64,000 nucleotides of DNA, taken from Sphingomonas horti (GTDB lineage Bacteria > Pseudomonadota > Alphaproteobacteria > Sphingomonadales > Sphingomonadaceae). Position numbers and translations under genes: made by a program. Below, piece after piece: positions 61,243 to 64,000 of the stretch. Under the pieces are notes generated by a model. The model saw nothing but the letters and a program-made list of their open reading frames with translations. It was not told where the DNA came from and ran no database searches. How positions within the stretch are numbered: the stretch's first letter is position 1; every line of letters starts with the position of its first letter. The stretch is from assembly GCF_009753715.1 (NCBI RefSeq), contig NZ_WQMS01000007.1:72001-136000 (forward strand), written 5' to 3'.

Positions 61243-61289
61243 GCGCGGCGCCCTGCGGGTCTAACCGGGGTTCGACGTCAAGGAGTCCG

Positions 61290-64000
61290 ATGGACGCCAA
61301 TCCGGTCTTCTACGATGCGAGCGGCCGCAGGCGGCGCCAGTTCACGCTCGCGGTAATCGCATTCGCGCTGCTGCTGCTGCTCGCCGGCGGACTGTTCGCC
61401 GCGACCATCGTCTCGACCACGCCGGAACCCGCGCTGCCGTTCCAGGCCGAACGGCCCGGCGGCGCGGCGCCCCCGAATGCGATCGAGCGCGGCGCGAAGC
61501 GGTTCGGGCGCGCGATCGTCCGGCGCGGCAAATGGCTGCTGAACGGCCGCCCCGCGCGCCTGACCACGCTCACCGTCGCCTTCCACGCGCCCTGGGACAG
61601 TTCCAGCGCGGCATCGCTTCAGCGCCATGTCGACGAGATCGACTGGCTGGTGCCGGGCTGGATTTCGGTCACCGGCCCGGATCATCGCTGGACCGTGTTT
61701 CCCGACCGGGCCGGCCGGCAGATCGTCGACCACGCCATTCATCGGCCCAAGGTCCTGCCGATGGTGCAGAATGCCCTGAACGGCGAGTGGGACGCCGCAG
61801 GCGCAACGGCGATGCTGCGGTCGCCGGCTGCGCGCAAGCAGTTGCTCGACCGGCTCGAGGCCTTTCTGATCGCGAACAAGGCCGATGGCGCGTTCTTCGA
61901 CATCGAGAACCTGCCGCCGCCGTCGCAGCGCGATTATCACGCCTTCCTTCAGGAAGCGCGCGCCCGCTTCCGGCCGCATGGCTGGCTGATCGCGATGGCG
62001 GCGCCGGTCGGAGACCCGAACTGGCGCCTGCCGGTCTATGCGCGGCAGGTCGATCGGCTGTTCCTGATGGCCTATGACGAGCATGATCCGGACGGCGATC
62101 CGGGGCCGATCGCGTCGCAGGCCTGGTTCGCGGCGACGCTCGCCCACGCGCTGAAAGGCCTGCCGCTCGACAGGGTCGTCGTCGCGATCGGGTCCTATGC
62201 CTATGACTGGACGCCGGACCGCCCGGCCGACACGCCGTCGATCGAAGAGGCCATGCTGACCGCACACGATTCGGGCACCGTGCCCCGTTTCGATGCGGCC
62301 AGCGGCAACCTGACCTTCTCCTACCGTGACGAAGGCGAGGACCACGAGCTGTGGATGCTCGACGCCGCCTCGTTCCACAACCAGATGATGGCGGCGCACG
62401 CGCAAGGCGTCAGCGGCATCGCGCTGTGGCGGCTCGGCACCGAGGATCCGTCGGTCTGGCAGATCTTCGGCCGCCGCCACCGCGCGGCCACCGACGTGCG
62501 CGCGATCGAGCGCATTCCGGCGGGCACCGATGTCGACATTGAAGGAACCGGCGAAGTGCTGCGGGTCGGGTCCACTCCGGTGCAGGGCCTGCGCCGGCTG
62601 ACGCTGGACCCGAGCGGCCTCGTCACCGGTGAGACGTTCGTCCAGCTGCCCCTGCCCTTTTCGATCCAGCGCGCCGGCTATCGCCCCGGCCTGGTCGCGC
62701 TGACGTTCGACGACGGCCCCGACCCGGACTGGACGCCCAAGATTCTCGACATCCTGAAGGCGAAGCACGTCCCCGCCACCTTCTTCATCGTCGGCGAGAA
62801 CGCGCTCACCTGGCGCGACCTGCTGGAGCGGGAGGTGCGGGAAGGCCACGAAGTCGGCAACCACACCTACACCCATCCCAATCTCGGGCGGACCAGCGAT
62901 GCCGTCACGCGCATCGAGCTCAACGCGGTGCAGCGGCTCGTCCAGGCCTTTACCGGCCACGCGATCCGGCTGTTCCGTGCGCCTTTCTTCGGCGACGCGG
63001 AGCCGACCACGGCCGACGAGATCGTGCCGGTCGAGGTCGGGCAGCGGCTCGGCTATCTGTCCGTCGGCCTGCACGTCGATCCGGGCGACTGGACCCGCCC
63101 TGGCGTGCAGGCGATCATCGACCGCACCATCGCCGGCGTGCTCGCTTCCAACCCGGAGCGGAGCGGCAATGTCGTGCTGCTCCACGACGCCGGCGGCAAC
63201 CGCGCCGAGACGGTCGCCGCGCTGCCCATCATCATCGACCGGCTGCGCGCGCGCGGCTACCGCTTCGTTCCCGTCTCGGAGCTGGTCGGCCTCAGCCGCG
63301 CCCAGGTGATGCCCGAGCTGACGCCGGAGGAGCAGCGCGCGGCGCGCACGGACCTTGCGCTGTTCACTGCGCTGGGCGCGCTGCAGACCGCGCTCAAATG
63401 GCTGTTCGCGATCGCGATCACGCTCGGCATTGCCCGCGCGCTGATCCTGTCCGGCCTGGCGCTGTGGCAGGCGCGGCGCGAGCAGAAGGAAACGCCGCCG
63501 GTCATCCGCCCGGACCGCTTCGTTTCCGTGCTGATCCCGGCCTTCAACGAAGCGCGGGTGATCGAATCCTCGGTGCGGCGCGTGCTCGCCAGCACCGCCG
63601 TCCAGCTCGAGGTGATCGTCATCGACGACGGGTCGAAGGATGCCACCGGCGACATCGTCGAGCATGCCTTCGGGGGCGAGCCGCGCGTCAAGCTGCTGCG
63701 GCTGGAAAATGGCGGCAAGGCGCGGGCGCTGAACCGCGGCCTCGCGATCGCCCGGGGCGAGTTCATCGTCGCGCTGGATGCCGACACGCAATTCCCGAAA
63801 AAGACGATTGCGCGGCTGGCCCGCTGGTTCGCCGACCCGACGATCGGCGCGGTCGCGGGCAATGCCAAGGTCGGCAACCGGGTGAACCTCGTCACGCGCT
63901 GGCAGGCGCTCGAATATATCACCGCGCAGAATCTCGAGCGCCGCGCGCTGGCCCGGCTCGATGCGATGACCGTCGTGCCCGGAGCCGTCGGCGCCTGGCG
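61290..64000 (+). CDS. GH18-like/polysaccharide deacetylase/GT2 fusion protein (3' partial)
   Basis: At least 903 residues, open to the window end. An N-terminal transmembrane helix (about 17-40) leads to a periplasmic GH18-like domain (catalytic-type DGAFFDIEN near residue 200), then a NodB polysaccharide deacetylase domain (about 465-665: TFDDGPD, GNHTYTHPN, RAPFF, HVDPGDW, LLHD). A second membrane segment (about 690-725) follows, then a GT2 glycosyltransferase domain (VLIPAFNE near 746, DDGSKDAT, LDADTQ). The arrangement suggests synthesis, modification and cutting of an N-acetylglucosamine-type polysaccharide in one protein. AAGGAG precedes the ATG. Confidence 0.9.
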   Translation, partial: MDANPVFYDASGRRRRQFTLAVIAFALLLLLAGGLFAATIVSTTPEPALPFQAERPGGAAPPNAIERGAKRFGRAIVRRGKWLLNGRPARLTTLTVAFHAPWDSSSAASLQRHVDEIDWLVPGWISVTGPDHRWTVFPDRAGRQIVDHAIHRPKVLPMVQNALNGEWDAAGATAMLRSPAARKQLLDRLEAFLIANKADGAFFDIENLPPPSQRDYHAFLQEARARFRPHGWLIAMAAPVGDPNWRLPVYARQVDRLFLMAYDEHDPDGDPGPIASQAWFAATLAHALKGLPLDRVVVAIGSYAYDWTPDRPADTPSIEEAMLTAHDSGTVPRFDAASGNLTFSYRDEGEDHELWMLDAASFHNQMMAAHAQGVSGIALWRLGTEDPSVWQIFGRRHRAATDVRAIERIPAGTDVDIEGTGEVLRVGSTPVQGLRRLTLDPSGLVTGETFVQLPLPFSIQRAGYRPGLVALTFDDGPDPDWTPKILDILKAKHVPATFFIVGENALTWRDLLEREVREGHEVGNHTYTHPNLGRTSDAVTRIELNAVQRLVQAFTGHAIRLFRAPFFGDAEPTTADEIVPVEVGQRLGYLSVGLHVDPGDWTRPGVQAIIDRTIAGVLASNPERSGNVVLLHDAGGNRAETVAALPIIIDRLRARGYRFVPVSELVGLSRAQVMPELTPEEQRAARTDLALFTALGALQTALKWLFAIAITLGIARALILSGLALWQARREQKETPPVIRPDRFVSVLIPAFNEARVIESSVRRVLASTAVQLEVIVIDDGSKDATGDIVEHAFGGEPRVKLLRLENGGKARALNRGLAIARGEFIVALDADTQFPKKTIARLARWFADPTIGAVAGNAKVGNRVNLVTRWQALEYITAQNLERRALARLDAMTVVPGAVGAW

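Follow-up and report, generated by a model that had tools for sequence, protein, structure and literature searches.

We identified a gene encoding a GH18 glycosidase-like domain, a NodB-like CE4 deacetylase and a GT2 glycosyltransferase in a single chain. The gene lies at the end of the window, that is, the whole stretch of 64,000 nucleotides analysed here (positions 72001-136000 of contig C23 in the 3.35 Mb genome G000). We propose that its product is a synthase of a deacetylated N-acetylhexosamine polymer, probably of GlcNAc and PNAG-like, in which the GH18 domain trims or guides the chain; we put the probability of this reading at roughly 0.6. The polymer making and processing at its core is based on PgaC/IcaA being the best score of the GT2 domain, on the grouping of the CE4-GT2 half with fusions of the MatB type, and on the requirement of MatB for PNAG.

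The reading frame opens with an ATG at 61290 on the (+) strand, preceded by a Shine-Dalgarno-like AAGGAG read directly at 61280..61285 (+), and continues uninterrupted to the window end at 64000. This part (61290..64000, +) holds 903 of 1112 codons. The earlier note on this DNA had placed the 3' end outside the window and had suggested completing the gene from the adjacent sequence. Indeed, the adjoining sequence (locus L004) finishes it without interruption as 1112 residues and a stop (ATG at L004 7291, stop ending at L004 10629), so that the stop codon falls 628 bases past the window, at window coordinate 64628. Comparison with the copy of a congeneric species, which is 91% identical, gives a dN/dS of 0.11 for the whole gene (0.10 for GH18, 0.09 for CE4 and 0.08 for GT2), which argues that the open reading frame is not a chance one. 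Purifying selection acts on every domain of this intact gene, and the recent pseudogene beyond the window that the earlier note had allowed for is ruled out by the complete frame and the low dN/dS. The gene is single-copy in this genome, where two other matches span only part of GT2. A search for promoters and terminators found none. In another species of the genus (L164, G004:C142:9626-12920), the gene is split, with residues 1-292 and 311-1111 in different frames; the break falls inside GH18 and may reflect either a real frameshift or an error of the assembly, which has 150 contigs.

The order along the 1112-residue protein is a membrane helix, GH18, a small linker, CE4, a second membrane helix, GT2 and further membrane helices. 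The three domains, first noticed from the letters of the window, all pass their Pfam cut-offs: 56.6 bits against 29.6 for Glyco_hydro_18 (PF00704), 109.5 against 23.1 for Polysacc_deac_1 (PF01522) and 108.5 against 23.3 for Glycos_transf_2. A structure model of residues 60-690 (mean pLDDT 92.3) contains the TIM barrel, the CE4 domain and, between them, the small beta linker (residues 415-463, 62532..62678, +; strands 356-404 of the model). Hydropathy places the first membrane helix at residues 20-38 (61347..61403, +), with four Lys or Arg before it and none after, and the second at residues 705-723 (63402..63458, +), with three Lys or Arg after it, where it joins CE4 to GT2. The full-length model of a 62% identical relative (L046, mean pLDDT 88) has corresponding helices at 13-41 and 689-743, the latter a single long helix that connects CE4 with GT2, and it ends in three long helices; its GT2 part matches the membrane-embedded processive synthases hyaluronan synthase (7sp7) and cellulose synthase (4p00). 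The two membrane anchors described previously thus stand for the part inside the window, whereas hydropathy of the full protein adds more helices behind GT2. Since the positive-inside pattern fits GH18 and CE4 outside and GT2 inside, the N-terminus is predicted to be cytoplasmic, GH18 and CE4 periplasmic and GT2 cytoplasmic.

The CE4 domain (residues 467-668, 62688..63293, +) carries all five family motifs, namely TFDDGPD, HTYTHP, RAPFF, DW and LLHD, with D474, D475, H525, H529, R563, D600-W601 and H632, and the description of a complete deacetylase is therefore correct. NodB, PdaB and PgdA, its nearest families, all act on N-acetylhexosamine glycans. The NodB score is 136.8 bits, under the cut-off of 240, and TIGR03938, which we take to be the PgaB model, is absent among the nine families reported for this domain. 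By similarity, the CE4 domain is of the NodB/PdaB/PgdA kind and not of the PgaB type.

The GT2 domain begins at residue 744, and its first part (63519..64000, +) contains DDGS (779) and DADT (830). Past the window follow LAEDQD with its ED (921-922) and QRFRW (958-962), the QxxRW motif whose absence the earlier note had named as evidence against its own reading. With DxD, ED, QxxRW and membrane helices all present, the fused glycosyltransferase appears to be of the processive-synthase type. These motifs are general in the family: CE4 D-D and H-H and GT2 DxD, ED and QxxRW occur in all 55 aligned tri-domain rows, with NDGS in place of DDGS in L067. The best NCBIfam match of GT2 is PgaC/IcaA (TIGR03937) with 183 bits, below the cut-off of 422.3, followed by NodC with 95.2 bits, below 550. 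Relatives give PgaC scores of 196 (MatB-like L092), 172 (a Deinococcus protein) and 201 (a Prevotella protein), so that similarity to PgaC is about equal in the tri-domain proteins and in the MatB type. Because GT2 is far under the PgaC cut-off, homology does not fix the sugar or the linkage.

The GH18 domain forms a TIM barrel of the SleL/YdhD type (residues 92-401, 61563..62492, +), identified by Pfam, by the model and by its fold. The nearest fold is SleL 4s3j (Z 33.9, rmsd 2.6, 307 residues aligned), with 4s3k, 5jh8 and 4q6t tied within one Z unit. The family motif of GH18 is DxxDxDxE, found in full in chitinases. Here, the motif reads DGAFFDIE (residues 199-206, 61884..61907, +) and departs from it at the second of the three Asp, which is Phe (F202, 61893-61895). 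The replacement of one Asp by Phe was thus seen correctly, under a motif written as DxxDxE, and D204, E206, Y262, D263 and W380 are all retained. Motif counts were made on 54 of the 55 aligned tri-domain rows, L073 being dropped since it is cut at the motif. Asp at position 4 occurs in none of the 54, compared with 52 for the last Asp and 44 for the acid Glu. The five nearest solved GH18 chains, whose alignments were read by eye, have Asn (5jh8), Thr (YdhD), Val (4wiw) and His (both SleL) at this position. The middle Asp, as judged from these alignments, defines chitinase branches and not the SleL/YdhD-type branch to which the window protein belongs. The whole SleL/YdhD branch being without that Asp, and D204, E206, Y262 and W380 being kept, F202 is a characteristic of this branch and does not indicate a dead site in this protein; the odd or inactive site implied previously does not hold, and F202 as an oddity or a mark of decay is ruled out. 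The window protein shares with SleL, YaaH and YdhD the GH18 fold, an xGxxxDFE-type motif that retains D and E, and the missing Asp at position 4. It differs from these spore enzymes, which have neither CE4 nor GT2, in that its GH18 is fused to both. SleL is an active enzyme.

Whether the GH18 domain cuts the chain is a separate matter. The acid Glu is lost (to Gln, Ser or Pro) in 10 of the 54 relatives, which belong to Acidobacteriaceae, a Verrucomicrobia MAG, Desulfobulbus, Rhizobiales and Rhodobacterales, and whose CE4 and GT2 motifs are intact. The losses require at least four changes on the core tree (L040 is outside that tree). Among relatives, GH18 has thus decayed repeatedly and CE4 and GT2 have not; synthesis and deacetylation are the constant part, hydrolysis being dispensable. 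In the Rhodobacterales where the acid Glu is gone, a gene for a DUF3131 protein lies directly 3' of the tri-domain gene (L039:11348-13885, L040:10973-13462). The proposal of the earlier note that the protein makes and trims a PNAG-like or chitin-like polymer consequently divides in two: synthesis and processing are its best supported part, through the PgaC/IcaA score and MatB kinship, and trimming by GH18 is a putative one. The same losses, together with Phe at position 4 and the actinobacterial relatives that, among the matches listed, function without GH18 in the matched protein, would suit a GH18 domain that is a non-hydrolytic, carbohydrate-binding guide near CE4 and leaves synthesis and deacetylation as the only chemistry. 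We regard this as possible but doubtful for the window protein: E206, D204, Y262, D263 and W380 are kept here, the five nearest solved relatives, active SleL included, equally have no Asp at position 4, and the dN/dS values of GH18, CE4 and GT2 are equally low.

Placing the protein among its relatives supports a connection to PNAG synthesis. The gene is carried by 33 of 199 family-level genomes and by 21 of 96 genera (E <= 1e-120). Named tri-domain relatives, among the matches listed, belong to Alphaproteobacteria, Gammaproteobacteria (Competibacteraceae), Bacteroidota, Acidobacteriota, Gemmatimonadota, Verrucomicrobiota, Desulfobulbus and Deinococcus; the genome scan covers the best 80 of 511 confirmed relatives and is no census. 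Actinobacteria, again among the matches listed, match at about 40% identity over a stretch that contains CE4-GT2 and no GH18. In a core tree of the shared CE4-GT2 part (87 rows, leaving out L040, L082 and the duplicate L004), 31 of the 33 CE4-GT2 rows fall on one side, and the remaining pair, L043 and L108, is found on a long branch placed among tri-domain rows; the data do not reject a single clade uniting all 54 tri-domain rows (p-AU 0.58). By this tree, the CE4-GT2 half is sister to actinobacterial CE4-GT2 fusions of the MatB type, two long branches excepted.

Streptomycete MatB offers the closest functional comparison. In Streptomyces, matA and matB mutants are reported to lose staining by a PNAG antibody (mAb F598), which complementation restores, and wild-type PNAG staining to be removed by dispersin B (PMC5972031). 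MatB (SCO2962 / SLI_3306) is described as CE4-helix-GT2 (PMC5972031, PMC4391728), and its extracellular NodB-like CE4, single helix and intracellular PgaC-like GT2 come in the same order as in the window protein. Its CE4 domain is likewise of the NodB/PdaB/PgdA kind, PgdA being reported as the nearest characterised homologue (PMC5972031). Streptomycete MatB homologues, among the matches listed, are about 40% identical over CE4-GT2 and form the sister group in the core tree. On the other hand, MatB has no GH18, works with MatA and belongs to a monoderm, whereas the window protein has an N-terminal anchor and GH18 and belongs to a diderm. With CE4, a membrane helix and GT2 in one chain and the closest kinship, the protein has what marks a MatB-type fusion; the extra GH18 makes it a sister form and not a MatB.

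The pgaABCD system contains the same three kinds of activity, a CE4 deacetylase, a glycoside hydrolase and a PgaC-like GT2, in PgaB and PgaC. PgaB of E. coli and Bordetella is reported to combine CE4 with a GH153 hydrolase that cuts dPNAG (PMC5933820). There, two proteins are used, GH153 is C-terminal of CE4 and export goes via PgaA, in contrast to the single chain, N-terminal GH18 and NodB-type CE4 of the window protein, whose genome has no PgaA over the cut-off. The best match to the PgaA porin (TIGR03939) in this genome reaches 28.1 bits against a cut-off of 366.65, over short stretches only; in a control search, the cut-off was passed in 1 of 14 genomes. The earlier note had suggested a check for a PgaA-like partner, and with none over the cut-off here this is not a Pga system. 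Gram-negative bacteria are reported to have divergent PgaB-GT fusions unaccompanied by pgaA and pgaD, with other export modes suggested (PMC7112194).

Known NodB and NodC, a NodB-type CE4 beside a GT2 of the NodC/PgaC kind, are encoded by separate genes and yield a short oligosaccharide. A short oligosaccharide or glycolipid made in this fashion, with no polymer, would agree with NodB being the best score of CE4 and NodC the second best of GT2, and with the same two activities occurring as adjoining nodB and nodC on rhizobial plasmids. We nevertheless find this quite unlikely: the window protein is under both cut-offs (137 of 240 and 95 of 550), PgaC/IcaA exceeds NodC by 183 to 95 bits, the MatB-type fusion is nearer (about 40% over one-chain CE4-GT2 versus about 32-35% for nodB plus nodC, among the matches listed), and nothing resembling nodA was seen in the neighbours scanned. 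Peptidoglycan remodelling, with the SleL-like GH18 and the PgdA/PdaB-like CE4 acting on peptidoglycan and GT2 adding a side glycan, is very improbable even though the nearest GH18 structures are spore-cortex enzymes and the nearest CE4 structures include peptidoglycan deacetylases, as kinship with MatB and the presence of a processive-type GT2 with its QxxRW in one chain with them point to a polymer of its own, and as specificity is unreadable from CE4 similarity, the CE4 of MatB also being reported as nearest to PgdA (PMC5972031).

Across 82 loci, the tri-domain gene is mostly a loner whose neighbours vary between genera, with no conserved EPS operon. In this genome, co-transcription with a dedicated export operon is not supported, the gene lying between an OpuB-like betaine ABC gene upstream and an opposite-strand TldD-like gene downstream (named by eye). 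The next gene in one Rhizobiales relative (L076) belongs to the polysaccharide export family PF02563, and L078 has a neighbour of similar size. In a Verrucomicrobia MAG, the upstream neighbour is another fusion, of a GH2-like barrel and a GT2 (L081:9062-11620). Four loci (L156:9792-11201, L157:5091-6494, L161:9872-11194 and L160:10229-11596) have a conserved, membrane-protein-like neighbour of about 440-470 residues following on the same strand, which overlaps the tri-domain gene in three of the four; the L156 copy has no Pfam match. In 9 of the 82 loci, the gene that follows directly, in opposite orientation, encodes a histidine kinase; this is not the case in the window's genome.

A recurrent neighbour is an LPG synthase (MprF-like), found within five genes in 8 of the 82 loci (L035, L036, L037, L047, L049, L054, L058 and L062); a VirJ-like gene lies within five genes in 7, L062 being the only LPG-synthase locus without one. 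Order and orientation of the two vary beside the tri-domain gene, and Pfam confirmed the LPG synthase in five and the VirJ-like gene in four of these loci, all that were run. Their sources include at least Sphingobium, Sphingomonas, Novosphingobium, Stakelama and a Gemmatimonadetes MAG and, L036, L047 and L054 being near copies, they represent about six arrangements. By a rough calculation from the frequency of the synthase (15 of 199 genomes) and the share of a genome looked at (about 10 kb of 4 Mb), chance would place far fewer than one such neighbour among the 82 loci. In Agrobacterium, AcvB/VirJ is reported to hydrolyse lysyl-PG and to form a pair with the synthase LpiA (PMC13197417, PMC13135905). 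Among the 199 family-level genomes, the tri-domain gene occurs in 33, LPG_synthase_C in 15 and VirJ in 14, and every VirJ genome also holds the synthase. Gene and LPG synthase occur together in five, on different contigs in four and about 175 kb apart in the fifth, so that adjacency was never shown there. Neither LPG synthase nor VirJ was found in the window's genome. This co-occurrence and absence indicate a minority context, not needed for function here.

The protein appears to be a new case of a recurrent, uncharacterised architecture, which would not surprise a specialist. It presumably corresponds to the CDD entry GH18_trifunctional (cd06549), which we take to describe uncharacterised bacterial proteins with GH18, CE4 and GT2. 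The literature searched, which covers few subscription papers, contained no study or biochemistry of any tri-domain member and no relevant paper under the name or number of this entry, a number match in PMC6902481 being taken as chance or reference text. Plasmid records label relatives simply as glycosyltransferase. In Sulfitobacter sp. OXR-159 (L042:7578-11033), the tri-domain protein is annotated as two adjoining genes, GH18 with CE4 and then GT2. A record titled Arthrobacter sp. TPD3018 (L044, QDFQ01000004.1) holds a tri-domain protein that groups within sphingomonads at 63% to the query, and is probably mislabelled.

On the preferred reading, GT2 with its membrane helices would take cytoplasmic UDP-N-acetylhexosamine, most likely UDP-GlcNAc, polymerise the sugar and pass the chain through the inner membrane. 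CE4, tied to GT2 by one membrane-crossing helix, would deacetylate the emerging chain to yield a partly cationic polymer of PNAG-like (or chitosan-like) type, and GH18 on the same periplasmic side would cut or guide it. One protein would therefore stand in place of PgaC and PgaB, or of MatB and a separate hydrolase. Among the properties that we infer here (sugar, linkage, chain length, topology, GH18 activity and surface route), the linkage and the GH18 activity are the least certain. We count against the PNAG-like reading the GT2 score of 183 of 422 bits, a CE4 that is not of PgaB type, and the lack of PgaA and of an EPS operon, as well as the report that MatB needs MatA for PNAG (PMC5972031).

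More speculatively, and on balance rather unlikely in its full form, the protein may be a self-contained diderm PNAG-like machine without PgaA or a separate PgaB. Its SleL-type GH18 would hydrolyse PNAG or dPNAG, and its cationic glycan would stay in or near the envelope or leave by another route. In some lineages it would be coupled to the turnover of lysyl-phosphatidylglycerol (MprF, VirJ/AcvB) and to a two-component system, as part of an envelope positive-charge programme. We know of no GH18 enzyme that hydrolyses PNAG or dPNAG.

The fusion spans several diderm phyla and is apparently uncharacterised, and the genome studied here is without the porin regarded as necessary for the export of PNAG. 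As the three activities are fused and so imply one product, the substrate of the GH18 domain can be guessed and tested, and a single purified protein could probe synthesis, deacetylation and cleavage together.
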